Of a DNA stretch of 64,000 nucleotides, positions 4,638 to 34,635 are shown piece by piece. Every line of letters begins with the position of its first letter. Positions within the stretch are counted from its first letter, which is position 1. Origin of the DNA: Thiovibrio frasassiensis (GTDB taxonomy: Bacteria; Desulfobacterota; Desulfobulbia; Desulfobulbales; Desulfurivibrionaceae). The notes below the pieces were generated by a model, which had not been told where the DNA came from, ran no database searches, and saw nothing but the letters and a program-made list of their open reading frames with translations. The translations under genes and the position numbers were made by a program. Where the stretch lies: NCBI RefSeq assembly GCF_029607905.1, contig NZ_JAPHEH010000001.1, forward strand, positions 897,530 to 961,529, in the 5' to 3' direction.

Positions 4638-4654
4638 TGGTGGCGATGCAGGGA
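4638..4654. repeat. Left attachment site of the 30-kb element (attL-type direct repeat)
   Basis: TGGTGGCGATGCAGGGA is identical to 34636-34652, which is the 3' end (CCA, acceptor and part of the T arm) of tRNA-Met. The two copies lie 29,998 bp apart and bracket all the AT-rich genes, including an integrase beside the tRNA. This is the classical signature of site-specific insertion into a tRNA 3' end. Similarity continues loosely (GAACCC) past the repeat. Confidence 0.88.
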
Positions 4655-4736
4655 ATCGAACCCTTACCACTCACTGCTCGCCATATCGTTGTAATTACGC
4701 ACTTCTCAAAATTCGATGCCGTACAATTTCGACCGA

Positions 4737-4760: not shown

Positions 4761-4832
4761 GGTGTCCAAAGCCTAATCTTTTTCGATGGGGCTGTACAGC
4801 ATAAAAGTGATGGTAGATAAAGCCTCCCTGCG

Positions 4833-4900
4833 AACTGCACATGTGCAGTTGCGAGCCATTACCAGGGGTCAGAGGCGTATCCAACTGCACATGTGCAGTT
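4833..4900. repeat. Paired-palindrome unit 1
   Basis: Two perfect 18-bp palindromes AACTGCACATGTGCAGTT at 4833-4850 and 4883-4900, exactly 50 bp apart, with spacer text CGAGCCATTACC. The same architecture recurs at 15322-15389 and 15599-15666. It lies 180 bp inside the left end of the element. Likely a binding site for a dimeric protein, but the partner is unknown. Confidence 0.85.
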
Positions 4901-4922
4901 GGTATGGTACCTCCAGGGAAAG

Positions 4923-4957
4923 AAAAAAGGCCCGTCAGACGATGCTGATCGGGCCTT
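4923..4957 (-). terminator. Terminator of the CsgG-like gene
   Basis: AAGGCCCG...CGGGCCTT forms a stem (about 4928-4957), with a T run in the minus-strand direction (A6 at 4923-4928). It lies 26 bases after the CsgG-like stop codon. Confidence 0.8.
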
Positions 4958-9193: not shown

Positions 9194-11638
9194 ATGGATA
9201 ATAGTACACAGAAGATTACGGAAAATACACAAAAGAGTGCTGTAGACGTCACCTCAGCCAAAGACCTAGCTTATGCGTTGTCGTCGGACGCTAAGGCATC
9301 CGGCGATGGCTGGATGACACGATGTCCAGCGCATGAAGATGACAAGCCATCGCTATATGTCAGTGAGGACCTGGAGAAAGATAGAATACTCTGGCATTGT
9401 AAGGCTGGTTGTTCTCAGAAAGCCGTTCATGAGGCTCTTGTCGCGTCTGGGCTGTGGCGAAGTCGTCGCTCTGCCGGTGAAGAATATATCTACACCGATT
9501 TTGACGAGACGCCGCTATACAAGCTTGTTAAAAGACCTGCCGCTAATGCGGAATCTAGCCCTGAGCGTTACATTGAAATTTTTGATACGACTCTTAAGCG
9601 TTGGGTGCGTGGCAAACTTGAAGACCATGCTATTGAAAGAGTGCTCTATCGTTTGCCTGAACTCGGTTCAGCCGGAATCAAAAAGTCCACTCGTCTCTAC
9701 ATTGTAGAAGGCGAAAAAGACGCCGAGACGCTTCGTGCATTTGGTTTCTGTGCTACCACGAACTCCGGCGGCGCATCCGCATGGAAGCCGGAATTTACCA
9801 AGCTGTTGGCAGACAAACATTTATGCATCGTTCCAGACAATGACGCTACTGGATGGAAACGCGCCGAGACTCTTTACAAGGAGTTCAAGGATTGCTCAAA
9901 ATCATTATTTTTGTGCAACACGAGTTTGTTGATCGGCGAAAAAGGTGACATTACTGACATTGTTGAGTGCTGGCGCGAAAACGGTGCCGATGACTCTGTT
10001 ATTGCCGAAAAACTCAAAGAGATCTTCGGAGATATTCACCTCACCAATGACGTGGCGTGCTTCAACTTCCAGTCCAGAAATTTTACGGCATCGATGTCAA
10101 TGACATGCCAGCTGCAAGAGTGCACCACACCCGAACTCATTGCTCAGGATTTTGAGGAAGCTCTACGGCGCAGGTTGGGCGTCAGTTTCATGGCTTTGCA
10201 CGTTGCAAAATTGCCGTCTAAAATATCTGATGGACTGGAAGATCGATCAGAAAAAAAGCGGCTGGCGGAAATCACCGAACAGCTAAAAGCCGCTCTCGGT
10301 CAAATTCTTCGCAATGAATGCCATGTTTTCAATGATCCGAAAGTTAATCAGCGTTTCATGTACTTGCCTTCGCAGTCAGCGCATTATGACATTGACTTCA
10401 AGGCGTATGAATCAGCTATTGCTACGGCCTACGCTAATTTACTGCAACGAATGCTAAACAGTTGGGCATTAGTTGACGACGTGCGCTTGCCCGTTAGCGG
10501 TTTCGGCAAAATCGCGAAAAGCACTTTGATTGACACAATGACGCCTGAAGCCATTGACGAAACGCTGTATTTATGCGCGAAAGGTAATGCCCTGGACTTG
10601 CGTTCTGGCGTTGTCACGCAGCTCTCATCAAGCGTATTCCGACAATCCGCACTTCAAGTCTCGCTGCTGACTCAGCCGATAACTCAGCGCCCGAAAATCT
10701 GGCAGCAATTTTTAGATGGGGTTGGATTCGAGGGCGAAATTGCTGACTTCTTTGAAGACTTGACCTTGTATCTACTCACGACCTCAACCGCGAGAGAAGA
10801 AGCGTACTTTCTAGTCGGCGATGGCTCAAACGGCAAGTCAACGTATATCAAATGGCTAACGTCGGTGGTCGGTCGCCATCATGTGTCATCGGCGTCACTA
10901 CAAGATTTCCAAACGAACTTCGGCGCGTCATCAATGGTCGGCAAGCGCCTAAATTTGTCCACGGAAAGCAGCAACCGAGACTTTGTTGAGTCCCACAAGT
11001 TCAAAGCTATTGTTACTGGCGACTCCGTGCAGGTTGATCGAAAAAATCGTGATCCGATCACTGCCGCGATGAAAACGAAGCTTGTGTTTGCGCTCAATGA
11101 CAGCCCGAGCATTTCCGACACGTCTTTCGGCATGGTGCGGCGTATGGTGATTGTGCGCTTTGACAATGTTATCAGCAAAGAAAATGCAATAGATGGTTAT
11201 GACAGGCGACTGTTTGACGCATCGGCTGAGATTATCGCGTGGCTATGGCATTCGCATACGACTAGGCATAATACTAGTGCCTTCAAGGTCAAATTTGAAA
11301 TGCCGGATCGTGTGCGGTCATGGGCTGAAGCAATATTTGCGTCCGACAACGATCCGCTGAATTTGTGGATCTATGAGCGTGTGACAGTAACCGACGACAG
11401 GCTCAAGATGCATGAATATACGTCCGCGCAGCTCTACAGGTTCTATTGCGTGTTCTGCAAGAATCAGGGACTGGAACCGTCGTTCAAACTCCGCAGCTTT
11501 TCAAGTGCATTCCCGCATCGTGTGCAGCGTGTCTTCAAGACGAAAGTGGAGCGGAAGACGCTATCAGGCAATCGTTCGTCGGTGGTCAATTTAATTGTAG
11601 ACTTGTCGAAGGATAATCCTGAATTAGCGGCGGCATAG
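9194..11638 (+). CDS. Primase-helicase, D5/SF3 type
   Basis: 814 residues combining primase and helicase functions for replication of the element. Residues about 25-90 hold a CHC2-like zinc finger (CPAHEDDKPSL ... WHCKAGCSQKAV). Residues about 155-265 form a TOPRIM domain with 'LYIVEGEKDAETLRAFGF' and 'CIVPDNDATG'. Residues about 350-500 are a D5_N-like linker, and about 535-680 an SF3 helicase with Walker A GDGSNGKS near 542, 'NLSTESSNRDF' and 'KLVFALNDSPS' as Walker B/C-type blocks. The same architecture occurs in phage and plasmid autonomous primases (P4 alpha-like). The downstream iteron region is the probable origin it serves. Confidence 0.88.
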   Translation: MDNSTQKITENTQKSAVDVTSAKDLAYALSSDAKASGDGWMTRCPAHEDDKPSLYVSEDLEKDRILWHCKAGCSQKAVHEALVASGLWRSRRSAGEEYIYTDFDETPLYKLVKRPAANAESSPERYIEIFDTTLKRWVRGKLEDHAIERVLYRLPELGSAGIKKSTRLYIVEGEKDAETLRAFGFCATTNSGGASAWKPEFTKLLADKHLCIVPDNDATGWKRAETLYKEFKDCSKSLFLCNTSLLIGEKGDITDIVECWRENGADDSVIAEKLKEIFGDIHLTNDVACFNFQSRNFTASMSMTCQLQECTTPELIAQDFEEALRRRLGVSFMALHVAKLPSKISDGLEDRSEKKRLAEITEQLKAALGQILRNECHVFNDPKVNQRFMYLPSQSAHYDIDFKAYESAIATAYANLLQRMLNSWALVDDVRLPVSGFGKIAKSTLIDTMTPEAIDETLYLCAKGNALDLRSGVVTQLSSSVFRQSALQVSLLTQPITQRPKIWQQFLDGVGFEGEIADFFEDLTLYLLTTSTAREEAYFLVGDGSNGKSTYIKWLTSVVGRHHVSSASLQDFQTNFGASSMVGKRLNLSTESSNRDFVESHKFKAIVTGDSVQVDRKNRDPITAAMKTKLVFALNDSPSISDTSFGMVRRMVIVRFDNVISKENAIDGYDRRLFDASAEIIAWLWHSHTTRHNTSAFKVKFEMPDRVRSWAEAIFASDNDPLNLWIYERVTVTDDRLKMHEYTSAQLYRFYCVFCKNQGLEPSFKLRSFSSAFPHRVQRVFKTKVERKTLSGNRSSVVNLIVDLSKDNPELAAA

Positions 11639-12660: not shown

Positions 12661-12789
12661 CGAAGTCAACGTAACTCGGCGTTTTTTCGTTAAAAAATAG
12701 CAAAAAAGACGTGTTTAAACACTTCTAGTTTCGTTACTATAAATATATAAAAGGTAAAGTTTATATCGTTGAATTAACGGGAAATTGTG

Positions 12790-13386
12790 ATGCCAAAAAG
12801 TCTGAAACTACGAACTGGAAAAACTCTCGCCGTTGAGCCGATCCAAAGCCGCGAGCACGTCGCACAAATCAAGCGCATGCTGAAAGCGAAATCAGACCCG
12901 CGTGACTATGCATTGTTTATTTTTGGTATCAATACCGCTCTTCGAGCCTGCGACTTGCGCCGGTTGACTGTCAATGATGTCCAACATCTCAAGCTTGGTG
13001 ATCCTTGGACGTTTCGTGAGCGAAAAACCGGAAAAATCCGAAAATTTGTGATGAATAGAGACATGTTTGACGCGAAAGTTCGGTTGCTCAAATCTCGACC
13101 CGACTTCACTGCCGCATCGCCGCTATTCATCGGCTATCAAGGAAGGCCGTTATGCGGCAAGTATATCAACTTGCTTGTGCAAGAATGGTGTCGTGCCGTA
13201 GGCATCACGTACCGCGTTGGAGGACACACGCCCCGCAAGACCTTCGGCTACCAAAAACGCGTCTATGAAAATGTAGATTTCGCTGTCCTGCATGAAATCT
13301 ACGGGCACTCTAGCATTTACATACTCAAGCGCTACTTATGCGTGACGGACGCTGAAGTACTCAACATACACACTGAACCGATTTAA
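12790..13386 (+). CDS. Short tyrosine recombinase, catalytic domain only
   Basis: About 198 residues. Core tyrosine-recombinase residues are visible: Arg in 'NTALRACDLRRLTVNDV', a Lys beta-hairpin (ERKTGKIRKFV), HxxR in 'GGHTPRKTFGY', His in 'IYGHSS' and the nucleophile region 'YILKRYLCV'. It lacks the N-terminal core-binding domain of full integrases and is distinct from the long integrase at 33022-34530. ATG 12790 follows GTG 12787. It sits beside the putative origin, so multimer resolution or a Xer-like role is possible (inference). Confidence 0.8.
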   Translation: MPKSLKLRTGKTLAVEPIQSREHVAQIKRMLKAKSDPRDYALFIFGINTALRACDLRRLTVNDVQHLKLGDPWTFRERKTGKIRKFVMNRDMFDAKVRLLKSRPDFTAASPLFIGYQGRPLCGKYINLLVQEWCRAVGITYRVGGHTPRKTFGYQKRVYENVDFAVLHEIYGHSSIYILKRYLCVTDAEVLNIHTEPI

Positions 13387-14644: not shown

Positions 14645-15300
14645 CGCGAACAAGCATAAAGGCAATGCTCATAGAGGCGACAGTATTTTTTATACTTGGC
14701 GCTCTTGGCTGCTGGTTGAGTTATCGACAAGGCAAACAAGAAGCTTATGCGTCGGCTGAGCCTATGACCTCTACCGACAACACTGCTCCTGAGCTGCAAA
14801 AGCTACTATACCGCTCGGCGATAGCTATTGAGGTACAGCAAACGATCATATACGCTAAGGAGTGCCTCAACGCCGCCGCGAGATTTGGGCAATCGCATGC
14901 TTTTTTACCGACCGATTCTCAAAAATCTCCGATCCTCCTGCTTGACGAAATTTCTCAAGCAGCACAACAGCTCCACCAGCAGCGCAAGGATCGTCGTCTC
15001 GGCCAGCTATTTACGGTGTCTTTGCGAATGCTCGATACCGAAGACCCGCCACTTTCTGAGGCGCAATGCTTCACCGACATCGTGTCTTTTTTTGAAAATT
15101 CCAATCCACCACATCTCTATTATGTCTTCAAAAACGAGGGCATCTCAGTGTCTTTTTTGTTCATCACCAACGACCGCGCCGATGAAATGAAGTTGAGTGG
15201 CAGCGACGAACGGGTCCGCATTCAGCTACAAGATCACTTTATGTCCAAAGGTTTCGCGATCGTCGCTCCAGAAGGCCTTTTTGACATCGATTCTGAGTGA
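14641..15300 (+). CDS. Signal-anchored protein of unknown function
   Basis: 219 residues. ATG 14641 overlaps the rhomboid stop (ATGA). An N-terminal membrane helix (about 8-27) is followed by a mainly helical periplasmic domain and a C-terminal domain with 'VSFLFITNDRADEMKLSGSD'. A degenerate copy of this last domain is found at 15421-15534. Possible substrate of the adjacent rhomboid, given the single N-terminal membrane helix, but this is untested. Confidence 0.6.
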   Translation: MTRTSIKAMLIEATVFFILGALGCWLSYRQGKQEAYASAEPMTSTDNTAPELQKLLYRSAIAIEVQQTIIYAKECLNAAARFGQSHAFLPTDSQKSPILLLDEISQAAQQLHQQRKDRRLGQLFTVSLRMLDTEDPPLSEAQCFTDIVSFFENSNPPHLYYVFKNEGISVSFLFITNDRADEMKLSGSDERVRIQLQDHFMSKGFAIVAPEGLFDIDSE

Positions 15301-15321
15301 CGCTCCCTGCGACCTCCCGTG

Positions 15322-15389
15322 AACTGCACATGTGCAGTTACGAGCCATTACCGAGATTCAGAGACCTCACCAACTGCACATGTGCAGTT
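15322..15389. repeat. Paired-palindrome unit 2
   Basis: Perfect AACTGCACATGTGCAGTT at 15322-15339 and 15372-15389, again 50 bp apart with CGAGCCATTACC in the spacer, preceded by a CCTCCC-type box as in the other units. Confidence 0.88.
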
Positions 15390-15420
15390 GGAAAAGCACC
15401 TTTTTGGAGCTCCAGGGGCC

Positions 15421-15534
15421 TCAATTTTGGTCGTCACCAGTAACCACGCCGTGAAAAAACTGAAATTGAACGGCCCCGACGACCGAATTCATCTTCGCTG
15501 CCGCGATTTTTTTATGTCCCGAAGTGTCGTGTAA
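15421..15534 (+). pseudogene. Degenerate duplicate of the 3' end of the 14641-15300 gene
   Basis: Translation of this stretch (ILVVTSNHAVKKLKLNGPDD then RIHLRCRDFFMSR) aligns with the C-terminal part of the upstream protein (FLFITNDRADEMKLSGSDER then VRIQLQDHFMSK) at roughly 40% identity with one gap, and ends in TAA. It lacks the N-terminal membrane part. Palindrome unit 2 separates the intact gene from the fragment. Confidence 0.6.
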
Positions 15535-15598
15535 GGCGCTCGCATGGTTCGTTTTTGACGCCGTTCTAGAACACAACATCCGCTGGTAGCCTCCCGTG

Positions 15599-15666
15599 GA
15601 CTGCACATGTGCAGTTGCGAGCCGTTACCGACGCTCAGATGCTGCACCAACTGCACATGTGCAGTT
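15599..15666. repeat. Paired-palindrome unit 3
   Basis: Palindromes at 15599-15616 (first base G instead of A) and 15649-15666 (perfect), 50 bp apart, spacer CGAGCCGTTACC. Unit 3 begins 277 bp after unit 2. Confidence 0.88.
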
Positions 15667-15792
15667 GAGAGAGCTTCTTTTTCGATCGTCTGGAGCCTCA
15701 AAAATGCGTCACAGACGACGCTTCCCTATTTCCACTCCTCGATTTACCGAATTTCGTTAAGGCGTTGGGGGTTTTATGCCTTTTGAGGAATT

Positions 15793-15868
15793 GCTTGAAA
15801 GTGGGCTCCGGTGGAGCCGGGCACTTTCCAAGCAAGGGCGCATTCAGCCCAACCGCGAAGCGGTTGGG
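15793..15868. promoter_or_regulatory. Two tandem stem-loops, candidate oriT or structured RNA
   Basis: First: GCTTGAAAGTG (15793-15803) pairs with CACTTTCCAAGC (15822-15833) with an inner GGCTCC/GGAGCC stem. Second: CCCAACCGC (15848-15856) pairs with GCGGTTGGG (15860-15868) over GAA. No poly-T follows. Adjacent hairpins upstream of relaxase genes are typical of transfer origins. Confidence 0.5.
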
Positions 15869-16088
15869 TAATGTGCCTTTACGCGTACATCACGCGGCAT
15901 TTCTTTTTTCCCGCTCTCACCCCAACGCCTGATTCCGACGCCTTCTCGTATGCAACAATAGCGTTGTACAAAGCCGCTAGAATTGGGTTCTATATAGATA
16001 GAAACGCCAATGAGTACGGGCACTTATGAATCATGAGCGTATCAAATTGATACGCCGCAAAGTGCCCAATGTACAAGGACGAATGGCC

Positions 16089-16619
16089 ATGAGGACGTAC
16101 AAATTCACCGCTGATCCAATCGCTGCCGCCTCGTATTTTCAGAGCGCGCCAGTGAAGCATTTCATCGCCGATTTTGAGCCGCAAGCTCGACTGCTTCGAG
16201 GCGCTTTTTTCCGTGACATGGAAGACCGCAAGATTCTTCAAATCTGTGCGAAAAGTGCGAGTGAAATTGCCACGGCCAGGAAAAATGGGATCGCTGGATA
16301 TCACGTGGTCTTTGAGCTTCCGAAACTCGATTCAGTGGCCATAATTGCCGTAGCGAAAGCTGTGTTAGCGTTATTTCCGAACGATCTTCCAAGCGTGATG
16401 GCCTATCACACCGGAGCCTACGAAAATGCAGGTAAGGCTCGACCGCACATGCATTTGTACTTCATTGCATATCCAGATGGCTCACCGACTAAGCGCCTGA
16501 TTAAGACCGTGAGAAGCTTGTTCTTTCTCAACCGCATTCGCCGTGTTGTAAGCGATATGTGTGAAGTTGTAGGTCGTTCAATGGATTGGGACTATGGCCA
16601 ATCGCAAACCGGCAACTGA
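16089..16619 (+). CDS. HUH-type relaxase-like protein A
   Basis: About 176 residues from ATG 16089, chosen because AAGGA lies 9 bases upstream; ATGs at 16083 and 16026 are alternatives. Residues about 105-125 read 'YHTGAYENAGKARPHMHLYF': a His, then an Asn/Lys-rich loop, then His-Met-His, matching the metal-binding HUH motif of conjugative relaxases and Rep proteins. An early Tyr (Tyr4) is a candidate nucleophile. A central 'AGYHVVFELP...FPNDLPSVMAYH' block is shared with the next protein, showing the two are paralogs. Likely nicks DNA at the element's oriT. No standard MOB family could be assigned by reading. Confidence 0.55.
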   Translation: MRTYKFTADPIAAASYFQSAPVKHFIADFEPQARLLRGAFFRDMEDRKILQICAKSASEIATARKNGIAGYHVVFELPKLDSVAIIAVAKAVLALFPNDLPSVMAYHTGAYENAGKARPHMHLYFIAYPDGSPTKRLIKTVRSLFFLNRIRRVVSDMCEVVGRSMDWDYGQSQTGN

Positions 16620-17529
16620 TTTTGTAAGGACGGAACCCGTGCACGCCGACTCTTATATCGCGAACCCGCATGTTGATTATTTGCATAAAGAAGATGCCGT
16701 GACCGGTTCCGCTCTCTACAGCAATGGCTTCTTCGAGCCAGGCGCAGACCCGGTGACGGTCAAACGCTTCTTTATTGAATCGGCGATTGACGCCAATGAT
16801 CATGCGAGAGCGAACACGAATGCCGTGGCCGGATGGCGTGGCTTGGTTCTTTTGCCGAACGATGCTTCACCACATGAAGTAACAACGCTAATGAAAAACT
16901 GCCTCCAGACGATCCCAAAAGAGTATCCAGTCGTTGCGACGGTTCATGCCGGGAGCGGAGCACGGAAGAATCTTCACATGCATTTTTATCTCGTGCCGCG
17001 TGCCGATGGCTCGACCTCGAACAAGGTCAACAAGAGCTTCGCGCATCAACCACTTACGAACCGCATCAAGGCTGCCGTGCAATCGACTTGGAAGCAATTC
17101 GGTCGTGAAATGCTTGTCAATGTTGACGAACACAAACTTCCGCCGATTTCGCCTAAATTTCGTGCCCATATCCGAAACACTCCGCAGAACGATGTGCTCA
17201 GCGGCAAAGCGGAAATGAGCGCGACCAACCCCGAATTGAAAAACTACTACCGGGTTTATCGAGAGAAGCTTCTCTACAAGCAGCGGCTCGACGATCTTGA
17301 CGCTGATGCGCGGAAATCGACGCTGTCGCCTGCCGCTCGTCGTGCTGAAGCTTTTCAGGAGCCGATTATTGACGATGTTTACCAATCGTTAGCCTTGAAA
17401 GCATCTACCGCAAAAATTGACATCGTAGCATCCAAGGTTGATGACATCGGCATCAAGCCTGTGCTCAACACCCCGAAGATCTCACCGACGAAACCTACAA
17501 TTAAGCTGCAAACCGGCCTGTCACGGTAA
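16594..17529 (+). CDS. HUH-type relaxase-like protein B
   Basis: 311 residues, overlapping gene A by 26 bases. Residues 118-130 read H-A-G-S-G-A-R-K-N-L-H-M-H, again His plus His-Met-His, followed by 'FYLVPRADGS'. The preceding block 'AVAGWRGLVLLPNDASPHEV' aligns with protein A. Candidate catalytic tyrosines lie at about 21, 29 and 42. The C-terminal 120 residues are basic and low-complexity (Lys/Pro/Thr), typical of DNA-binding or coupling-protein contact tails. Together with protein A it suggests a two-subunit relaxase. Assignment rests on the motif and on neighbours (coupling ATPase, TraG-like protein). Confidence 0.6.
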   Translation: MANRKPATDFVRTEPVHADSYIANPHVDYLHKEDAVTGSALYSNGFFEPGADPVTVKRFFIESAIDANDHARANTNAVAGWRGLVLLPNDASPHEVTTLMKNCLQTIPKEYPVVATVHAGSGARKNLHMHFYLVPRADGSTSNKVNKSFAHQPLTNRIKAAVQSTWKQFGREMLVNVDEHKLPPISPKFRAHIRNTPQNDVLSGKAEMSATNPELKNYYRVYREKLLYKQRLDDLDADARKSTLSPAARRAEAFQEPIIDDVYQSLALKASTAKIDIVASKVDDIGIKPVLNTPKISPTKPTIKLQTGLSR

Positions 17530-18383: not shown

Positions 18384-18619
18384 AGAAACTTTTTTGGCTC
18401 TTGTTGTTGTTTTTAGTGCTCGCTGGTGTCGCTGCTTACTCCGAATCTATCGGGCGCTCAGCGGTGACGTTCATCTCAACGTTTTCGTTAGCGATTACTT
18501 GCGGTCTCATTGGTGTTGTTGTTCTCAAAGTTGGCGGCGGGGTTTCCAAAAGCTTTAAATCTCAGCTTCCAACGGAAGTTGAGGCGGATATCATCGAACT
18601 CAAGAGGCGATTGCCATGA
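18380..18619 (+). CDS. Small two-helix membrane protein
   Basis: 79 residues with two membrane helices (about 3-22 and 31-50) and a C-terminal charged tail ending EADIIELKRRLP. It overlaps genes on both sides by 4 bases, so its expression is tightly coupled to the TraG-like protein. The size and hydrophobicity would suit a pilin-like or VirB2/TrbC-like subunit, but there is no long signal peptide, so this is speculative. Confidence 0.6.
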   Translation: MKKLFWLLLLFLVLAGVAAYSESIGRSAVTFISTFSLAITCGLIGVVVLKVGGGVSKSFKSQLPTEVEADIIELKRRLP

Positions 18620-21198
18620 ATAGTGCGCTAATGGCGTTTGATTTGAACAATGCACAGATGTTATCGAGCGGTCTTTATGCTGGTAGTGTGGTGTTCAATT
18701 ATGGGTTTAAGGCCATTGCTACTTATGGGGTTATCGTTGGGCTCCTCATGATCTTCGTAACAAAAAAACCTTTGCATTTTATTGCTACGGCGCTTATCGG
18801 CTACGGCGTGATGCACATATTATTCGCCACAGACGCGCTGCAATCTTCGCCGTCATCTACGTCCTCAACGCTCTCAATGTCCGTTATCAGCGATGATGTC
18901 TATGCTGGATTCTCTCCCGCTACAGCTTCTCCGATTTCAAAAATCATCACATTCCGAGATCCGGGTTTGAATGCCAAACAAGAAAGCATGGATACTTACG
19001 GCACAACGACGTACGAAGTGCTCGCGGCTCTTGGCGATGGAAGCGATGTTGTTGCTTCAGCCGACACGTCAAACATCGCTGGCCCGACATTTGATCCGAA
19101 ACAAATGACCGTCTTTGTGATGCCGTCAACGCGCACGTCAGATAGCGACAGTTGGCGAGCGCTTCCTGCTGCCGGGTCACAATATGGCGGTGCCTTTTCA
19201 AAAGCGATGATGTTCGCGCATAATACTGGCATGCGTGTTGCTTTTGCATCCGCGCATCATCTCGATGCAGAGTCGTTGTTTGATTCCGTTGTTGATTGGG
19301 CCGCCTCGCAGGGTCCCGCTAACTCTCCAGAACAGACCAAGCAGGCAATGCTTGATAACACATATGCTTCTCTTTCAGGCGGCGGTACGGTTGCTTTACG
19401 TGCACCGACTTATCAGCATTATCCTGGCGGAGTATCCGGGTACGCAAATCGTCTAAGCACGATCGTTAAAAATCCGATGACGGTTTTCACTTCCAAAACG
19501 GCGGATGCGTCGTCATTCATCGATCCATCAAAGCCGAGCATTGGTCGTATGGATACCATTTCCAAAAAGTATGGGTATGACTCGAACGACACCGGCGTGT
19601 CAGCCGAATATTATTTGCAGACCCATATCCCGTTGTATGAATCACAGTGCGCTCAGGAGCCCGTGTTGAGCACGGCTGAAAATGCTCAGGAATTCATGAA
19701 TGGCCTAAATCCATGCGCTACTTTCCGATCACGACCGTTCAGCTACCTATCCAATACTCCGGGTAAGATGGCGTCGGTCAAGGGTCTTGATCAAGCGTTA
19801 GAAAAGACCTCCAAGACGGTTGACAATGTATCGCAGTGGCTAAACAATGGCTCTTCGTGGAAAGCGATCGGCGGGGCTGCTAGTTTTGTCAGCGGAACGT
19901 TTAATTTGCCTGTGACGTCGGCACCGGCATGCACGGCTGCCAAGTCACTCGGTGACTTGAAGCATATCTACGAAGAATGGTCTAAGTCGGAAGCCCCACA
20001 AGCTCTATCTAGACGCGGATGCTTGAAGCTCGCGCAAAACATTTCCGCCGCGCAACAAGCGATTGCGGAGACAATGGACGAAAATGATGACATTATTGAT
20101 GGCTTCTATTCTAAGCAATCATCGTATGCTCTTGAGGCATCCTCGGCATATGCGGTTTCAGTCAACGTCGGCACTGAAGCCCTTGCGTTGCATGAAGCTA
20201 ACTTTGCCGGCATCGACAATGTGCTTCAAGGTCTTGAAAAGTCCATATTAACGTCGTCTCTGCCGCCGGTTCAGCTGAAAAGTGACATTGTTGTCGAAAA
20301 TCTCAGTGCACCAAGCATCGTTTCTCCGGGTATGGCCGCTGGAACGGTTGCCACGTTAGGATTCACGACGGCTGAAGTCTCCGCAATGATTGATGGCAAA
20401 GCGAGTTATTTCACTCGTACTTGGGATGGTCTCAAAAATTTAGGAACGAAGGCGGTCACGGCTGTAAAAAGCACTGGCGCTAAGGTCGCTAACTCAAGCG
20501 TCCGTGCGCTCAAAAGCATCTCTCCTTTCGAATGGATTACTAAGGCCGCTAAGTGGATCGGGGTCTTGCTTGCGTTGCTCCCGGTCATTGCAATCCTCTC
20601 TTTATACGCGACGGCGTATTTCACTATCACCGCGCATTCGATGGCGATCTTTGCGATGTTGCCAATTGCGTCCTCGCTGGTATATGCGCGAATGATGACA
20701 TCTACCGCTTCCGACGAGGCTCAAGGTGGCGTGGCTAATTTTCCGGTACTGAAGACTCTAGTAATTATCCCTGCGGTAGTTGGTCTCGAAAATGTCGCCA
20801 TTGGCGCTGCCGGTCCTCTAGTCATGAGTTTTTTTCACTCGTCCGTCGGCATACTCTTGAAGTCGCTCGCCATTGTCGGTGGAGCGTTGGTTGAATCCGT
20901 GACTCTTGGCGTGTTCGAGTTTGATATCACTGGCATGCTATTGAACACGCTGAAGCCTCTCGGTGCGATAATTGTCATGTTTGTTGTTGCGAAAGCTGCG
21001 CTGAAGCTGTTGCCCGGTGGTGTCGGGTCAGGAGCTAGTATGGAGCAAAGCGCCAGCGCCGCTATGCCATCAGCACCTGCTGGTGGCGGTGGCGGTGGTT
21101 CCAATAAGAGCGACTCCGGGTCTTCGAGCGGCTCTAAAAGCGCGGTAACTCCGACCACATCAACCGAATTAGGCCATAACATTGCCGCGAAATCATAA
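18616..21198 (+). CDS. Large polytopic TraG-N/DotA-like conjugation membrane protein
   Basis: 860 residues. Two to three membrane helices at about 20-75, a long periplasmic domain with several Cys (about 340-480), then four to five helices at about 640-800, and a Gly/Ser/Lys-rich tail after 820. A TM / large periplasmic / TM-cluster layout is shared by F-type TraG N-domains and DotA/TraY proteins, which stabilise mating pairs or form the inner-membrane channel. Residues about 155-215 (VFVMPSTRTSDSDSWRALPA) could be the substrate-sensing part. There is no ATPase motif. The family call is based on topology and neighbours, not strong sequence identity. Confidence 0.55.
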   Translation: MNSALMAFDLNNAQMLSSGLYAGSVVFNYGFKAIATYGVIVGLLMIFVTKKPLHFIATALIGYGVMHILFATDALQSSPSSTSSTLSMSVISDDVYAGFSPATASPISKIITFRDPGLNAKQESMDTYGTTTYEVLAALGDGSDVVASADTSNIAGPTFDPKQMTVFVMPSTRTSDSDSWRALPAAGSQYGGAFSKAMMFAHNTGMRVAFASAHHLDAESLFDSVVDWAASQGPANSPEQTKQAMLDNTYASLSGGGTVALRAPTYQHYPGGVSGYANRLSTIVKNPMTVFTSKTADASSFIDPSKPSIGRMDTISKKYGYDSNDTGVSAEYYLQTHIPLYESQCAQEPVLSTAENAQEFMNGLNPCATFRSRPFSYLSNTPGKMASVKGLDQALEKTSKTVDNVSQWLNNGSSWKAIGGAASFVSGTFNLPVTSAPACTAAKSLGDLKHIYEEWSKSEAPQALSRRGCLKLAQNISAAQQAIAETMDENDDIIDGFYSKQSSYALEASSAYAVSVNVGTEALALHEANFAGIDNVLQGLEKSILTSSLPPVQLKSDIVVENLSAPSIVSPGMAAGTVATLGFTTAEVSAMIDGKASYFTRTWDGLKNLGTKAVTAVKSTGAKVANSSVRALKSISPFEWITKAAKWIGVLLALLPVIAILSLYATAYFTITAHSMAIFAMLPIASSLVYARMMTSTASDEAQGGVANFPVLKTLVIIPAVVGLENVAIGAAGPLVMSFFHSSVGILLKSLAIVGGALVESVTLGVFEFDITGMLLNTLKPLGAIIVMFVVAKAALKLLPGGVGSGASMEQSASAAMPSAPAGGGGGGSNKSDSGSSSGSKSAVTPTTSTELGHNIAAKS

Positions 21199-21214
21199 CG
21201 AGAAGGTGCTACTC

Positions 21215-22741
21215 ATGAAAAAACTGATCTGTGCTGGTTTGATCATAACGGGAATATTTGGCGGCTCAGCGTCGGCTGAACTTGCGAGCGTCAATGACCT
21301 TGTTACACTCCGCGACCAGTTGCTTGGGGCAAAGGTGACAAATACTGCTCTTGATGCCATTAAGCCGGAAACGGCTGACACGACGAGTGCTGCGAATGCA
21401 AATGCTGCGGCCCTGGAACGTGCGAACAAAGTTGAAAGCGAAATAACATCACCGAGGTCGGCTAGTGATGCATCAAATATCCGCGTCATGTTCGTTACGC
21501 CATTTAAGTACAAGAACGTCGGCAACATCTTGATCCGAAAAAGCTTCAATGACGTTCAAAAGAGCTATGCTCTTGAGCCGGGTTCAGAAAAAAATGACTA
21601 CGTGTCATTCGAGAAAACAGCCAAGGCTATCCTTGATTCTATCGGCAAATGTCAGCTTCCGGGTTCCGTAGCCGACCGGCTTCAAGAGTGCGCAAATAAA
21701 CTTCCAGATGAATTTGTTATGGCTACAAACTTGATCCATTCATATCAAGCATGGAAAGATGTTGAGATCCGCACGATTCTTGGTTTGTACGCCGACAAAT
21801 GGAAATCTCCGGTTCTAGCTGATCGTCTCCAGGCGCGGTTGCTTAGTTCGTGTATGCACAAAGCGTTGTCCGACACGTCCGACTCGGGTGCGTCGATTGA
21901 GACCTGTCGCCAAGCCGCGAATTGGGATCTTCGTGATCTTTTTACCGGGTTCAATGACGCTGCATGCTCCGGCGGCTCAATGCCTACAAAGACCAAAAGC
22001 GTGTTTGATTACCGAGATTTTGTGAAAGGCTGTGTTGCCAATAACAAAATCGCAACGGCTTCTACCGGAACGCAGCTTGCCGTAGACCTGTTTCCGACGA
22101 TTAAGATAGCCGTCCAGACGGTAAAAGGTGGCGGCAGCGTCCAAGTTGTCCTACAGCCGCCGCTTATCGCCTCTTCAGCATTGTATTCCGCAGTCTATAT
22201 GCGTCTCATTGGTACCGAAGATGCGCCGGGAATCCTAAAATCCGATTGGTTTTTAAGTGGCTCGACACAAGGCCGGATTCCATCAATCTTCGCTCCCGCC
22301 AATGTGTCATATGACAACAAGAACATGCAATATTTCTCAATCGGCATTCCGCCGACGTTGATCACTAAGCTGAATGCGCTGCCGCTTGGTGATCGTGAGT
22401 TTTTCATTGAAATGCTTGCGAGAAAATTAACGCTCATCCAGTCGCTCGAAATCATACGTGGCGCGCAAATGATTGCCATTGAATCCGACCGAGCGCTAAA
22501 CTCAAGTGATACGGATCTCGGACGCTTGACCGCGACCGTTGTTGAGTATTTTGACATCATGGCTCGAAGCTATAATGAGAGCATCGATCTAACATCGACA
22601 TTGACCATCGAAGACATCTTGCTTGCGGTTGACAATCTCTATCAGAATTATATGGAGGCGCGGCGAAAGCATGGCAACTCCGTTGCAGTCTTACAGAATG
22701 AAGTTCATCGCCAGATGGTTGACAAGAGTCTTGGCAAATAA
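21215..22741 (+). CDS. Exported protein partner of the TraG-like protein
   Basis: 508 residues. ATG 21215 is preferred (AGAAGGTG upstream) because it starts a clear Sec signal peptide (KKLICAGLIITGIFGGSASA). The mature protein has an N-terminal helical region, several Cys (about 145-165, 205-260) suited to disulfides, and a helical C-terminus. Size, export and position after a TraG-like gene parallel TraH of F-type systems, but I could not find a TraH signature. It is followed by a strong bidirectional terminator that closes this operon. Confidence 0.55.
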   Translation: MKKLICAGLIITGIFGGSASAELASVNDLVTLRDQLLGAKVTNTALDAIKPETADTTSAANANAAALERANKVESEITSPRSASDASNIRVMFVTPFKYKNVGNILIRKSFNDVQKSYALEPGSEKNDYVSFEKTAKAILDSIGKCQLPGSVADRLQECANKLPDEFVMATNLIHSYQAWKDVEIRTILGLYADKWKSPVLADRLQARLLSSCMHKALSDTSDSGASIETCRQAANWDLRDLFTGFNDAACSGGSMPTKTKSVFDYRDFVKGCVANNKIATASTGTQLAVDLFPTIKIAVQTVKGGGSVQVVLQPPLIASSALYSAVYMRLIGTEDAPGILKSDWFLSGSTQGRIPSIFAPANVSYDNKNMQYFSIGIPPTLITKLNALPLGDREFFIEMLARKLTLIQSLEIIRGAQMIAIESDRALNSSDTDLGRLTATVVEYFDIMARSYNESIDLTSTLTIEDILLAVDNLYQNYMEARRKHGNSVAVLQNEVHRQMVDKSLGK

Positions 22742-22855: not shown

Positions 22856-23917
22856 TTAAATCCCGTGACCTTCATACGTGGTACCGTCGGGAAGATACAC
22901 TCGACCGATCGTCATCACGAGCCCGCCTTTTAAGAATTTTTTAAACTGGATCGTTGACCATTTTCCGTATGTTGTGTCGCCGACAACATCAAGTTTCTCC
23001 TTCGGCAGGTTGTATTTCAGGACGCCGATGAAGATTTCAGCCGCCGATGCGGTTCGTGCGGATTTCAGCACACGTATTCGCCCGTTGAACTTGGTTAAAT
23101 CAAAATCCGGCGTTCTAGCGGTGCTGTAGGCGATTGTTTTGTTGCGCCGCACTTCCGTAAACATCTTTGTGTTCTTCGGCAAGAGCGATGACAGCAGCGT
23201 CGTCAAGGTGTTGACGCGACCTCCTGGACACTGTGACAGGTCAAATTCAATGGTATGGATTCGCTTTGCGTCCAATGAATCTAGAAAATTTACAAATGGA
23301 ACATGTGTCTCATATGCGAAGCTATACATCGTCACTCGTGCCGTGTCGCCTTCAACCTCAGTATACAGAGACTTCAGCTCTCCAGATTGAAGCTTTATCG
23401 AGCGTTCGATTTTGTTGGTACCGCGAACCACAACATTAAGTTCATTGGACGCCTGAAACGCCGCTAAGAACTTTTCCGGCTTCTCTTCAGCCGCGACACG
23501 TATGATCGTTTCTCCAGGCTGAAGGAGAGCATAGTTTTTTGAGTGCCTCAAGACGTCGGTGATCACTCCCGTCTTTCTATCAAATCGTATTCCGTACTTC
23601 TTCCTGTCCGGCGAGTCATATGACTGATACAGGTCGTTGAACTCGTGCTCACTCTCCAAGAAAGAAATGTAGCGGTCTTTCGTCCGAAGGCCGGTCTCAA
23701 CTGCCGCTGTTAAGTCTTGTTCCGTGATGAATTCCGAGCTTGCGTTAATGGCCCGTCCCACCTGCGACAAATACGATGACGCCGAATAGCTGTCCGTCGA
23801 ATGGTAGGCGAATTGTGTTGCGACGAAGCAGCTCCCAAACAACAGCACATATTCTAATTTTCTCGACAGAAGATGCCTAAGCGGTTTCCAAAAAATTGCA
23901 TATCGCCCCATGTCCAT
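22856..23917 (-). CDS. S41-family (CtpA-like) serine protease, membrane-anchored
   Basis: 353 residues. An N-terminal membrane helix (about 20-38) anchors a periplasmic protease. Residues about 105-165 are PDZ-like (KYGIRFDRKTGVITDVLRHS ... QPGETIIRV). The S41 core follows: 'EFDLSQCPGGRVNTLTTLLS' (canonical DLRxNPGG, here with Cys), S291 in 'ARTASAAEIF' and K319 in 'VVGDTTYGKW', giving an intact Ser/Lys dyad. ATG has AAGGAG 8 bases upstream. It is the only reverse-strand gene inside the transfer block. It may process a transfer component or act in surface exclusion (inference). Confidence 0.82.
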   Translation of the reverse strand: MDMGRYAIFWKPLRHLLSRKLEYVLLFGSCFVATQFAYHSTDSYSASSYLSQVGRAINASSEFITEQDLTAAVETGLRTKDRYISFLESEHEFNDLYQSYDSPDRKKYGIRFDRKTGVITDVLRHSKNYALLQPGETIIRVAAEEKPEKFLAAFQASNELNVVVRGTNKIERSIKLQSGELKSLYTEVEGDTARVTMYSFAYETHVPFVNFLDSLDAKRIHTIEFDLSQCPGGRVNTLTTLLSSLLPKNTKMFTEVRRNKTIAYSTARTPDFDLTKFNGRIRVLKSARTASAAEIFIGVLKYNLPKEKLDVVGDTTYGKWSTIQFKKFLKGGLVMTIGRVYLPDGTTYEGHGI

Positions 23918-24682: not shown

Positions 24683-26659
24683 GTGAACTCGAAATTTATT
24701 GGCATCACCATAATGCTCGCACTGGGTCTTGTATTTTTCATCCCTGCGATCCTTATCGATTCTTGGTTTCAAGGTATCGAGCATTTCAACTATGGCGATG
24801 ACTTTGATGCATGGGAAGTATGGTTCTATACCCGAGATATCTTCTTCGATGCTGGCGTTGCCATAAAATGGCGCTTGTACTTGTTTTGCTTTAAATACGC
24901 GCCTTATGCCTACACAGCATGCGTGACCGTTGGCGGCGCAGTCCTTTACCACAAGAACCGGCAGGCACTCATAAAGGCGAAGATCTCTGCTACGTGGGCC
25001 AAGAAATCCGATCTGAAAGAATTTCTCGGTAAGGATGGCGTCAAGCTGACACAGAACATTCGGCTCAACGAAAATACGTGCTACGGCCATTTGTTGATCG
25101 TTGGCCCGACGGGTTCCGGTAAAACCGTTTCCTACTTCTTGCCGAACCTTTTCTTGCTCGACCCGAGATACTCAGCCGTCGTCACCGATCCGAAAGGCGA
25201 GCTTTACCAACAGACCTCAGCTTATTTGAGGGCGCATGGCTGGAAAACGAAGCTGCTGAAGCTAGACAATAAAGATGTTTCGGAAAACTGGAATCCGCTC
25301 GACTTGCCGACGGATGAGACAATGATGCTGAAAGTGTGCCAGTCGATTATGGCCAATGCTTCCGGCGATCACGGTGCCGGTGCCAATGAAATGTTCGTCA
25401 AGGCCGCTAACAACATGCTACTCGCGATGATTTATATCGTGAAGGTGTTGCCGGAGCGCTCAGGCTCCGGTGTGGATGGCTCATACGGAAATTTGCGAAA
25501 CGTAGCCGAGCTTGCATCTACGTTATCTTTTGAAGCAATTGTCGGATTGACGGAGTATGCCGCTGCGAAGCTGAAAAATGACAGCTTGCTCAACCGTGTC
25601 GCGAAATTTCGACCAGGGCGAGGCGAAGAGTCAACGAACAACTCCGTCAGCTTTGTCTTGGGTCCGGCCCTAGAGCCGTTCATGAACGATGACATTACAA
25701 AAATCACCGCCCAAACAACTTTTGATTTCACGGAACTGAAATCGGCTGAGCATCCCACCGTGTTGTTTGTTTCAGTTCCAGAGCACAAAGTATCAGCCGT
25801 AAAAGCGGTTCTCGCTACGCTGTACATGCAGATTTTCGATGCATTGCTCGAATTTGGCCCAAGCGGTCATCCAGTTTTCTTCTTTCTCGATGAATTCGCC
25901 AATATCGGCAAGGTCGTCGGCTTCCCGCAATATATTGCTACGATCCGAAGCCGAAAACTCTCGGTCTCAGTGTGTCTTCAGTCCATCGAGCAGCTTGAAC
26001 GTGTATATGGGGAATCCGAGAAGAAAGAAATACTGAACAACCTAAAGACGCAGCTGATCCTTCCTGGTCTGAAAGAAGATGAGTCTCTCTCATACTTCTC
26101 AAAGATCTCCGGCGACGTCAGCTACATGGAACGCGAAGAAGCCGATGGAAGCTTGAGGGTGCACTCGAAAGAGCGCTTGCCGATTCACGAAATACGAGGA
26201 CTTGAAGACAATGCCGACAAAAAACTGCATGAAGCTATCGTATTCTGTCAGAACAAAAATGCCTTCAAAGATCGACAATGTCGCTCTTATCTCGATTCTG
26301 AGGTCAGCTCGAAGATGCGACAGTACGGAACAACCCCGTTTCCGACGCTTCCGGCTGATTATTATGAGCGCGTTGCAGAGTCTTGTTTTTTGTCGCCCTC
26401 AATGAAGGAACTCCTCGACAAGATTGGGATGTACATACTTTATCGCGGCGACGTAAAGAACATTCCCGCCGACTACAAAGAGCGGTCACAAGCGAAAATG
26501 CAAGATTTCATCAGCGTCGTTGGGCGTCCGACCATCGAGCGCTCCGGCACTGATATTGCCGTCATCTGGAACCCTCACGCCACGAGCCTTGAAGGTATCT
26601 ATGCTCAGCAAATAATTTCAACCGCGTTTGAGTATCTCACGAAGCAAAATCTGATGTAA
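24683..26659 (+). CDS. VirD4/TraG-type coupling protein (T4CP)
   Basis: 658 residues. Two N-terminal membrane helices (about 5-25 and 75-97) are followed by the T4SS-DNA_transf/TraG-D domain with Walker A 'GPTGSGKT' near 142, 'DPKGELYQQT' near 170 and Walker B 'FFLDEFANIG' near 400. The chain then continues with 'IATIRSRKLSVSVCLQS'. It links the relaxosome to a type IV secretion channel and powers DNA transfer. Translation begins at GTG 24683. It is the best-supported conjugation protein here and, with the HUH pair, identifies the element as mobile by conjugation or mobilization. Confidence 0.93.
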   Translation: MNSKFIGITIMLALGLVFFIPAILIDSWFQGIEHFNYGDDFDAWEVWFYTRDIFFDAGVAIKWRLYLFCFKYAPYAYTACVTVGGAVLYHKNRQALIKAKISATWAKKSDLKEFLGKDGVKLTQNIRLNENTCYGHLLIVGPTGSGKTVSYFLPNLFLLDPRYSAVVTDPKGELYQQTSAYLRAHGWKTKLLKLDNKDVSENWNPLDLPTDETMMLKVCQSIMANASGDHGAGANEMFVKAANNMLLAMIYIVKVLPERSGSGVDGSYGNLRNVAELASTLSFEAIVGLTEYAAAKLKNDSLLNRVAKFRPGRGEESTNNSVSFVLGPALEPFMNDDITKITAQTTFDFTELKSAEHPTVLFVSVPEHKVSAVKAVLATLYMQIFDALLEFGPSGHPVFFFLDEFANIGKVVGFPQYIATIRSRKLSVSVCLQSIEQLERVYGESEKKEILNNLKTQLILPGLKEDESLSYFSKISGDVSYMEREEADGSLRVHSKERLPIHEIRGLEDNADKKLHEAIVFCQNKNAFKDRQCRSYLDSEVSSKMRQYGTTPFPTLPADYYERVAESCFLSPSMKELLDKIGMYILYRGDVKNIPADYKERSQAKMQDFISVVGRPTIERSGTDIAVIWNPHATSLEGIYAQQIISTAFEYLTKQNLM

Positions 26660-27665: not shown

Positions 27666-28376
27666 ATGCCTACCCCGTTATTTACTGCCATGGATTTGGA
27701 AGACTTACGAAAAATTATAGAAAATGGAACTCTACCGTTAGATTGTTCATCTAATGTGATTGAGTCCGGAAAATTACGCGATTGCAACGATATTTTGCAT
27801 AGTTACACGATAACTAACGGCTGGAATATTGTATTCTCCAATAAATGCGATCGTGAATGGCAAGCATACTTTCTAAAATTGTTTGAATTTATAGAAAAAC
27901 AAAACTATGCGGAAGAGAAGTTAGGTGAAATACTTTCAGAAATTCAAACCCAAGACCTTCATTGGGATTGGTTTAAAAAGTCTGTCGCATATACAACCCC
28001 TGAATACGAATGGTTTTATTTGATTGCCGATAATAAACCTCAAGGGGCGTGTTTAATTTATCACCCAAAAGACAGTATCACGGATGCAAGAAAAATTTTC
28101 TATATAGAATATCTCGCAGTTGCACCATGGAACAGAAACAACCCGATGGGAGCAAGGCTCTTTAGAGGGGTAGGAAGCATCTTGTTGAAGTGTGCCTTGT
28201 CATATGCGGTTAACACACTAGGCCTTGAATATGGTTTTTCGTTGCATTCTCTGGCTCAAGCCAAGGATTACTATAAAAAAATAGGAATGGAGAGCTATCC
28301 TGCAAGAGACAAGGAACACTTATTTTATTTTGAAATGTCTAGGGCCAATTCAACAGCGATGTTGGGGGGAACATGA
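27666..28376 (+). CDS. GNAT-like acetyltransferase, first gene of putative defence operon
   Basis: 236 residues. The central part has the GNAT pattern: 'WFYLIADNKPQGACLIYHPK' (strands 2-3), 'YIEYLAVAPWNRNNPMGARL' (beta4/motif A with the acetyl-CoA loop in a less usual NNPMGARLF form) and 'SLAQAKDYYKKIGME' as motif B. It lies 116 bases after endonuclease I and overlaps the metallopeptidase gene by 4 bases. Base use is clearly AT-richer than the transfer genes. It may modify a partner protein or tRNA, as GNAT toxins do, but that is inference. Confidence 0.6.
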   Translation: MPTPLFTAMDLEDLRKIIENGTLPLDCSSNVIESGKLRDCNDILHSYTITNGWNIVFSNKCDREWQAYFLKLFEFIEKQNYAEEKLGEILSEIQTQDLHWDWFKKSVAYTTPEYEWFYLIADNKPQGACLIYHPKDSITDARKIFYIEYLAVAPWNRNNPMGARLFRGVGSILLKCALSYAVNTLGLEYGFSLHSLAQAKDYYKKIGMESYPARDKEHLFYFEMSRANSTAMLGGT

Positions 28377-29263
28377 ATACAGAAAACTTCCACTTAAGCG
28401 AATTGAATGACTTTGAAGTTAGTAAGCATCAGTCATCTAGTGAAACTGCTACGTCATATTATAATAGCTACCTAAAATTCAAAGAGATTGTTGCTGAGCT
28501 CCCGAAAGATGAGCTCATCAACCGAGGCTGGATTAGTTCCAAGGATGACTTGGCCTCACTGGTCCCGCTTTATCAAAGCATCTCATCCAATAATCTGAAA
28601 ACTTTATTCCGTAAATCGAACACATCGAATAATGCGCTCTGCTCTGCATGGCTCGCAAGTGTGACCACCACTGCTAAGCTTATGGTTTCCATCGGAAGAA
28701 TTAATAACTTTGACGGGTTAAACAAAAACTTTCTGAAAGAAATTGCACAGCTAAGTCCGGATGTGTCCATAATCACGAAGCTACCAGAAATATTAGCAAC
28801 GAAAGGGATCGTTCTTGTTTACGAAAAGGCTTTGCCTGGGATGAAACTTGACGGGGTAGTCTTAAAGCTTGTGTCAAATAACCCTGTCATAGGAATTAGC
28901 TTTAGATATCCAAGGATAGACCATTTTTGGTTCACGTTATTACATGAATTAGCTCATATATGCATCCACCTTGATCAACTTGATACACCAATTTTTGATG
29001 ATTTTGAGTCAGAAGAAGTTGAAACGAATGAACTGAAGGCAAACCGGTTAGCAAAAAACTCTTTTGTTGAAAAACATGCTTGGCGTAATTGCATGGCAAA
29101 ATACGATACAAATCCTGAATCTGTTGTTGAATTTGCAAATTATATCGGCATACATCCTGCGATTGTTGCTGGCATGCTACAGAAAGAGACAAACAAATAC
29201 AATAGATACAGAAAGCTAACTGACGAAGTTGACATAAGGAAAATGGTGTTTGGCGATGACTAA
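28373..29263 (+). CDS. ImmA/IrrE-type zinc metallopeptidase
   Basis: 296 residues. 'FWFTLLHELAHICIHLD' carries HExxH at 191-195, with a downstream acidic segment (ESEEVETNELKANRLAKNSF) holding the third zinc ligand, typical of ImmA/IrrE (DUF955) peptidases. An N-terminal helical part (about 25-115) resembles HigA-like/COG3093 fused regions. ImmA proteins cut repressors of mobile elements. Here it is translationally coupled to the GNAT-like and beta-type genes. Confidence 0.82.
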   Translation: MNTENFHLSELNDFEVSKHQSSSETATSYYNSYLKFKEIVAELPKDELINRGWISSKDDLASLVPLYQSISSNNLKTLFRKSNTSNNALCSAWLASVTTTAKLMVSIGRINNFDGLNKNFLKEIAQLSPDVSIITKLPEILATKGIVLVYEKALPGMKLDGVVLKLVSNNPVIGISFRYPRIDHFWFTLLHELAHICIHLDQLDTPIFDDFESEEVETNELKANRLAKNSFVEKHAWRNCMAKYDTNPESVVEFANYIGIHPAIVAGMLQKETNKYNRYRKLTDEVDIRKMVFGDD

Positions 29264-30329
29264 CAGGTACATTCCTTTTTTAAAACTGAAGTCTAGTGAA
29301 ATTTTAGCCATTAAAGAATTAAGCGACGAATTAAAAGAAAATTTTGTTCCTTTTTTTGATTTTCCACGGCAGAAGAAAAATACTCAGCTTGCTTTTAAAA
29401 GCACTACAGAGAAAATGGTTCGAAGTATGTCAAGTCATTTAAAAGAAAATTTCAATTTCTATTTAGATAATTTTGATATTGATTCAATTCTGGAAATTGA
29501 CAGCATAAATAATTATGCTTACTTATTGAAATCATTTTCAGAGTTCAATGTAATTCCTGTAGTCTCAATCGATCGATGTGCCGAGCATCTAGCTGCTGTT
29601 GTTGATGCTAAAAGTTCAGGGGAGCTTAGTTCTGTTGTTTTTGCTTTACGGCTTGTTCCCGAAGATTTTGCGTCGTACGACGCTGTCGCGGATGAAATCT
29701 CAGATGCTCTAATTGAGATTTTCGCCTTGTTTGACTCTGTTGATCTTATTTTTGATTGTAGAGTTTGCCTGGGGCAGGATCTAAAGCAGCTAAAGATTAA
29801 TATCGTTGAATTTGCCAACGATTTTTCTAAAGATTATCCTCTTCGAAAATTAATCGTTGCCGGTTCATCTATTCCTGCGTCCATCCGGGACGTCGCCGGT
29901 GCAGAAAGCGAAGTTGAGCTAACTCGACCCGAGCTTAAAATATATAAGAGCGTTGAAAAAGAAATAGGCCAGATTTATGATGTTGTCTTGGGTGACTACG
30001 CGACTGTTAGCCCATTTTACTCTGAGCTCGATATCATGCCTGAGATAATGCAAAACGTAACAGCTCCGAAAATAATATATTCATTTGATGATCAACATTA
30101 TATCATTAGAGGCGGCGCGCTAAAGACCCACCAAAGAGGATTTGCGCAATATTTTGATCTTGCTGCAGTCCTTGTTTCTAAAAATTTTTACAGAAGTGCC
30201 GAATATTCTTTTGGGGATCATTACTTAAGTGAAAAAAGTCTTGGTATTGGCAAAAATGTCACGCCTAGTAGCATAGTTAAACCTACGCTCAACGCACACA
30301 TTTCATATATGCTAAAAGACTTTTTTTAG
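29256..30329 (+). CDS. 'Beta' family (sce7725-type) protein
   Basis: 357 residues. Begins 'TNRYIPFLKLKSSEILAIKE', contains 'LSDELKENFVPFFDFPR' and further on 'VLGDYATVSPFYSELDIMPE', the layout I associate with the beta-protein/sce7725 family related to T4-like beta. Several paired strands and acidic loops suggest an alpha/beta barrel. It starts inside the metallopeptidase stop (8-base overlap) and its stop overlaps the stop of the convergent sce7726-type gene by 4 bases. Family function unknown. Confidence 0.6.
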   Translation: MTNRYIPFLKLKSSEILAIKELSDELKENFVPFFDFPRQKKNTQLAFKSTTEKMVRSMSSHLKENFNFYLDNFDIDSILEIDSINNYAYLLKSFSEFNVIPVVSIDRCAEHLAAVVDAKSSGELSSVVFALRLVPEDFASYDAVADEISDALIEIFALFDSVDLIFDCRVCLGQDLKQLKINIVEFANDFSKDYPLRKLIVAGSSIPASIRDVAGAESEVELTRPELKIYKSVEKEIGQIYDVVLGDYATVSPFYSELDIMPEIMQNVTAPKIIYSFDDQHYIIRGGALKTHQRGFAQYFDLAAVLVSKNFYRSAEYSFGDHYLSEKSLGIGKNVTPSSIVKPTLNAHISYMLKDFF

Positions 30330-30889: not shown

Positions 30890-31171
30890 AGTAATTCACA
30901 AGAATCTGTAGCTTTTCTTCATAAAATACGCGCTGTCGGGAGCGGGTAATCTTACGCTTAATTGCCACGTTCGTACAGAAGTTTAAATTGTCGATGCACC
31001 TGCTATTCTTACAAGTTACCATGTACCATGAAAATCCGGCAGTTTTCCGAACAAAATTTTTGCTTTTAATTCTTCAGTCCACAAATTAGTCACGCCCCTA
31101 TCTTGTTGCTTCATTCACAAAAACATGATAAATTTCGCGGAGCTATGCAATAAAAATTAATCGGGGAATAC

Positions 31172-34530: not shown

Positions 34531-34549
34531 AAAAAAACCTCCAGATCGA

Positions 34550-34570: not shown

Positions 34571-34635
34571 ACTCGAACCTGGAGGTATGTGCGAAGCAGA
34601 AAACCTTAATTATATTAAGTATCTGCGTGATATTC

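Follow-up and report, generated by a model that had tools for sequence, protein, structure and literature searches.

The window, a stretch of 64,000 nucleotides from Thiovibrio frasassiensis, contains a 30-kb island inserted in a tRNA-Met gene (Table 1). The insertion site is empty in all three genomes of the same genus that were examined (16 other genomes of the genus were searched); in these the window's two flanks meet, overlapping by exactly the 26-bp repeat, and nothing between them matches the island. An integrase adjoins the tRNA gene, and the coupling protein that the earlier note had placed in the neighbourhood is real. Because the integrase and the coupling protein are present and no VirB4 gene in the 95% complete genome exceeded the cut-off of the one model used (TIGR00929; best score 17.7 bits), the island is, as judged from its gene content, most likely an integrative mobilizable element, mobilizable rather than self-transmissible. 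Two overlapping genes, A and B, lie between a pair of strong hairpins and the coupling protein gene.

Table 1. Features of the island and of the relatives of A and B. Positions refer to the window.
Feature	Position	Strand	Description and basis
attL	4638-4663		26-bp direct repeat; first 17 bp exact, 24 of 26 overall
P4-type primase of the island	9194-11638		Family search
Small tyrosine recombinase	12787-13386	+	41% identical to an ORF on the Desulfopila contig that carries C
Second strong hairpin, beside the candidate oriT	15791-15835	+	Folding
Candidate oriT	15837-15880	+	Inner hairpin CCCAACCGC-GAA-GCGGTTGGG at 15848-15868, followed directly by TAATGTGCC at 15869-15877
Gene A	16026 or 16089 to 16619	+	ORF calling; 197 aa from ATG 16026, 176 aa from ATG 16089
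Residues of A (197-aa numbering)			Candidate Tyr37; metal-triad His128, His141 and His143; His45 opposite Tyr29 of B
Gene B	16594-17529	+	ORF calling; 311 aa
Residues of B			Candidates Tyr21 and Tyr29; His118, His128 and His130
Domains of B			MOBQ-like HUH relaxase domain, about residues 7-180, then a helical C-terminal part
VirD4-type coupling protein	24683-26659	+	PF02534 (T4SS-DNA_transf) above cut-off
Tyrosine integrase of the island	33022-34572	-	Next to tRNA-Met, which holds attR
attR	34636-34661		attL repeat again, in the 3' end of tRNA-Met (34636-34712, minus strand)
Relative C			Desulfopila aestuarii DSM 18488 (L014); 311 aa, single gene, one match per genome
Relative D			Desulfobulbaceae MAG isolate SB20 (L015); 305 aa, single gene, one match per genome

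The region between gene B and the coupling protein is occupied by two long genes of 860 and 519 aa (18616-22741), the products of which have a membrane or secreted character by eye. They could be element-specific parts of a transfer pore. The TraG-like label given earlier to 18616-21198 was not supported: searches of Pfam, NCBIfam, the PDB, plasmids and related genomes returned nothing usable, and a TraG/TraH-like reading of 18616-21198 and 21182-22741 gained no support from family, structure and plasmid searches. An S41-type peptidase is encoded within the transfer region on the opposite strand (22856-23917). The island also carries defence cargo at 28373-32907, comprising PD-Lambda-2-like B (28373-29263) and C (29250-30329) genes, a cll-like gene (30326-30889) and a SmaI-type restriction-modification pair (31172-32092 and 32089-32907).

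Both open reading frames, A and B, are intact, and they overlap by 26 bases. The start of gene A is likelier to be ATG 16089 than ATG 16026, because it is preceded by AAGGA at 16075-16079. This start, the overlap and the motifs HTG...PHMH in A and HAG...NLHMH in B are as described in the earlier note. The upstream block said to be shared by the two proteins was confirmed in part. AG-[YW]...LP...P-x-V is common to A and B, but the exact string P-x-V-x-A-x-H-x-G occurs in A only, which reads PSVMAYHTG, while B reads PVVATVHAG, with T in place of A. The proposal that the two genes are diverged duplicates stands. BLASTP aligns the proteins with 26% identity (42 identical residues among 163 aligned positions, E 3e-12), B recovers A in a whole-genome search (E 2.1e-7), and by sequence comparison the homology of A and B is far above the chance level.

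Relatives of the pair are few. A two-row profile of A and B matched three of the 257 genomes of the class, namely the own genome and two of the same order, and a scan of genome contigs found relatives on the same two contigs, those of Desulfopila aestuarii and the SB20 isolate (C and D). No relatives were found in the genome contigs by direct search with B, in viral contigs with B and C, or in plasmids with A, B and C, and among 97 related genomes searched with B only the own genome matched. A four-row profile, run across the phylum, matched two of 395 genomes: the own genome and a frame of DNA polymerase III alpha, the latter judged to be a chance match. C and D belong to the same family as A and B, but each occurs as one copy and is followed by a conserved 107-aa gene that overlaps the end of the relaxase gene (L014:10894-11217; L009:12060-12383). 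This small gene, perhaps encoding a relaxosome accessory protein, has no blastp match among the ORFs of the island in the window. The coupling protein of the window has no match in the 33.5 and 32.0 kb compared for C and D (E 0.01). The Desulfopila contig with C also encodes a related integrase (26% over 503) and a small tyrosine recombinase (41% over 183). The host order also contains some sulfate reducers.

The His plus His-x-His triad and LP are invariant in all four members of the family that were found. The long C-terminal part is common to B, C and D, and A does not have it. B has the layout of a full-length relaxase, like the single relaxases C and D, and A appears as a stand-alone MOBQ-like HUH relaxase domain, a bare catalytic domain in which the metal triad is kept.

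The relaxase identity of A and B was examined by fold comparison. The models are of low confidence (mean pLDDT 57 for B and 56 for A) and are not independent, both having been built on alignments of the same four rows. The best Foldseek match of B was MobA of R1162 (E 7.5e-4), with low TM-scores (0.31/0.48), and relaxases took three of the 50 listed rows (ranks 1, 2 and 5). For A, relaxases were again three of the 50 listed rows (ranks 1-3), with E-values of 0.0094-0.059, none at E <=0.001. A second look was taken with VIA-align, which re-aligned the top 1000 chains from Foldseek. The first 26 of the 50 entries listed for B were all relaxases (Z 11.9-8.2), followed by a Rep HUH domain at Z 6.7 and by unrelated chains from 6.1. 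The first 27 of the 50 listed for A were likewise all relaxases (Z 9.2-6.1), and the next entry had Z 5.8. MobA itself (2ns6) aligned with B at Z 10.6 (rmsd 3.4, 146 aligned). The top row of both models was the 4ht4 relaxase, which we take to be NES and which belongs, by the title of its entry, to a staphylococcal vancomycin-transfer system. Its Z-scores (11.9 for B against 4ht4_A, with rmsd 3.8 and 159 aligned; 9.2 for A) lie within 1 of the next rows, and its identity is 16% to B and 11% to A. Absence from the rows listed by Foldseek and VIA-align speaks against no fold. A fold unrelated to HUH enzymes, the outcome that the earlier note had named as contrary to its claim, was not obtained.

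Family models did not recognize the proteins. A and B gave no meaningful match in Pfam, NCBIfam and PHROGs (best E-values 0.15, 0.18 and 0.093), and phmmer searches with A and B found no solved structure in the PDB. PF03389 (MobA_MobL), with a Pfam gathering score of 26.7 bits, did not match A, B or D and matched C below the cut-off (15.2 bits, E 0.019); nothing in the whole genome matched it. In profile-profile comparison, a profile of A, B, C and D scored 46.8 (E 2.5e-6) against a profile of seven MobA/MobL sequences, while 200 column shuffles did not exceed 19.3 and the reversed profile scored 11.6. The profile of A and B scored 31.5, with shuffles at or below 19.9. The MobA/MobL profile was made from six class-level loci (L016, L017, L018, L021, L022 and L026) and the plasmid record L046; L019, of which the trimming rule left 16 residues, and L020, L023, L024, L025, L027 and L028, which are further pieces or copies of such genes, were omitted. 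Against it the single proteins scored 40.4 (C), 39.9 (D), 22.8 (A) and 18.9 (B), the last no better than the best shuffles; the link of A and B to MobA/MobL thus depends in part on C and D.

In both the profile and the MAFFT alignments the three histidines and the LP of the family fall on their MobA/MobL counterparts. In six of the seven MobA/MobL sequences a Glu stands six residues ahead of the P of LP; B, A, C and D have R, H, Q and Q there, respectively. Because this Glu is missing and no member reaches the PF03389 cut-off, the very divergent family is called MOBQ-like here and is not filed in MOBQ. Fold comparison and the shuffle-controlled profile comparison together support the claim that A and B are HUH relaxases, and we regard both as very probably proteins of the relaxase type.

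The position of the catalytic tyrosine depends on the alignment. The motif P-x4-S-Y-[IFL] can be read by eye in A, B, C and D. When the four proteins were aligned with the MobA/MobL rows by MAFFT, Tyr37 of A, Tyr29 of B, Tyr26 of C and Tyr23 of D fell in the MobA/MobL tyrosine column in three of three runs. A forced hhalign alignment placed Tyr21 of B, not Tyr29, in this position, and the default profile alignment spans residues 70-181 of B, outside the tyrosine segment. MAFFT of the four members alone opened an 8-residue gap in C and D, so that their tyrosines share a column with Tyr29 of B and with His45 of A. The models put Tyr37 of A, like Tyr21 and Tyr29 of B, within the first helices, where confidence is low. 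Tyr37 of A is thus a plausible, alignment-dependent candidate for the nucleophile.

Upstream of A, the segment 15790-15890 folds into two adjacent hairpins (-34.2 kcal/mol, z -8.2), and none of 200 shuffles was as stable. The TAATGTGCC that follows the inner hairpin of the candidate oriT itself pairs in the outer stem. When hairpins with arms of at least 8 and loops of 3-8 were counted, the hairpin upstream of A was alone among 20 in the 64 kb in having TAA directly 3', both strands being considered; this is a post hoc statistic, as the GAA loop and the TAA had been spotted before counting. Thirty block shuffles gave a mean of 6.3 hairpins, 0.23 with TAA, and none that also had the GAA loop. 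In RSF1010 a hairpin is described as followed by TAAGTGCG/CCCT, the slash marking nic, and MobA is said to contact the stem at its base only (PMC4814116). By analogy, the layout of the hairpin and TAATGTGCC at 15848-15877 is suggestive of an origin resembling the RSF1010 oriT. A conserved hairpin, CAGGTA/TACCTG, followed by TAAGGGCC, is found upstream of C and D, where the hairpins fold at z -2.8 and -2.9. Because several hairpins precede these single-gene relatives too, the two hairpins upstream of A are not a pointer to two enzymes. Rfam models gave nothing above cut-offs over 15200-16200, the only matches being two weak ones to microRNA models on the palindrome repeat described below. The same interval contains three terminator-like sites, against 1.5 expected; neither of the large hairpins is among them, and one, at 15882-15896, begins just past the candidate oriT.

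The reading that we tentatively favour is that A and B are tandem paralogous MOBQ-like HUH relaxases, both of them working, with B as the pilot and A as a second active protomer; whether both genes are active is in itself nearly balanced, with doubt slightly the heavier. The relaxase would bind the hairpin at 15848-15868, nick the plus strand a few bases 3' of it and stay on the 5' end through a tyrosine of the first helix, and the coupling protein of the element would hand it over to the mating pore of a helper. The resemblance of B to C and D extends past the catalytic domain, which makes B the likely pilot relaxase. A is close in size to minMobA (186 residues), a minimal nicking domain, and keeps the metal triad; it would most likely serve as a second active protomer, either in the second cleavage and termination or in re-nicking on the donor side, rather than persist as a dead copy. 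A relaxase with one active tyrosine is described as needing a second copy for the second cut (PMC6362355, PMC7314908). In a stricter version, duplication would have split the work between obligate partners to give a two-gene relaxase, in which B is transported as the pilot and A serves as the protomer of the donor side or of termination. This version is rather unlikely; if it were true, two different proteins would supply what other systems get from two copies of one.

It may instead be that only B works and that A, a duplicate of the catalytic domain of B, is idle or decaying. C and D each do with a single gene, the long C-terminal part is confined to B, C and D, and the four-row alignment has His45 of A where the others have Tyr. 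Yet A retains His plus His-x-His at only 26% identity to B, its Tyr37 is aligned with the MobA/MobL tyrosine in every MAFFT run that included those rows, and its frame, its ribosome-binding-like site and its overlap with B are intact; one would expect a copy idle for long to have lost some of these features. An idle A is an unlikely account.

Small accessory proteins are usual in relaxosomes. A might act in regulation or as a structural partner: by binding the hairpins that precede its own operon it would repress the operon or assemble the relaxosome, with no nicking of its own. The location of the hairpins and the uncertain tyrosine of A are consistent with this role, but binding alone would not require the conserved metal triad, and we consider it unlikely. 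Still further down stands the possibility that A and B are rolling-circle Rep initiators of the excised element and not conjugative relaxases. Reps are themselves HUH enzymes, and the structural list of B continues with a Rep domain; the relaxases nevertheless rank above it, the profile match is to MobA/MobL, and the island has a coupling protein and a P4-type primase of its own, which makes this reading very improbable. That the small tyrosine recombinase is an atypical relaxase mobilizing the element while A and B do something else is scarcely credible, for all that it is a second, short recombinase with a relative on the Desulfopila contig and that such a role has been proposed for MpsA of SGI1 (PMC9299015), as A and B are already relaxase-like in fold and motifs and the recombinase may equally serve excision or resolution.

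Among known systems, MobA of RSF1010/R1162 (MOBQ, PF03389) is like A and B in predicted fold, in the candidate tyrosine of the first helix, in the order of H and HxH, in the LP strand and in having TAA directly after a hairpin at oriT, here a candidate one. Points of difference are the lack of a Pfam match to A and B, with C under the cut-off, the LP-strand Glu that is absent here, and the presence here of two tandem genes, one of them a bare domain. Two relaxase genes in one element are described for streptococcal IMEs with MobT and MobV, which belong to different superfamilies (PMC5357655), and one plasmid may carry MOBP and MOBQ (PMC9791958); A and B are, instead, adjacent paralogues. SGI1 is similarly described as a mobilizable island with its own transfer genes and a need for a helper, but its presumed relaxase, MpsA, is a relative of tyrosine recombinases (PMC9299015). 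The duplicated relaxase domain of PMC5826034 was set aside as a precedent, the construct described there being an engineered TrwC. Within the terms used, no tandem pair of paralogous relaxases was recognised in the open literature searched.

Which relaxase molecule makes the terminating cut, and whether it does so in one cell or the other, is described as an unsettled question (PMC7314908, PMC6362355). With a natural pair of diverged relaxases, ordinary mutation would suffice to separate the two roles, and the reason why the element has two copies could bear on how relaxases finish transfer. Because the models of Pfam, NCBIfam and PHROGs that were tried miss the family, mobilizable elements with such genes may go unrecognised.

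Elsewhere in the genome, far from the island, a 508-aa frame matches the relaxase family PF03432 (G000:C1:1137908-1138240, 51.6 bits), and another mobile element may be present there. A 112-bp repeat occurs in three copies within the window, one just inside attL (4824-4935) and two upstream of A (15313-15424 and 15590-15701), with 71 and 81% identity to the reference copy. Each copy contains two CTGCACATGTGCAG palindromes 50 bp apart; there are six exact palindromes of this kind in the window and none in 100 shuffles. The repeats may be sites at which a partition, replication or excision protein acts.
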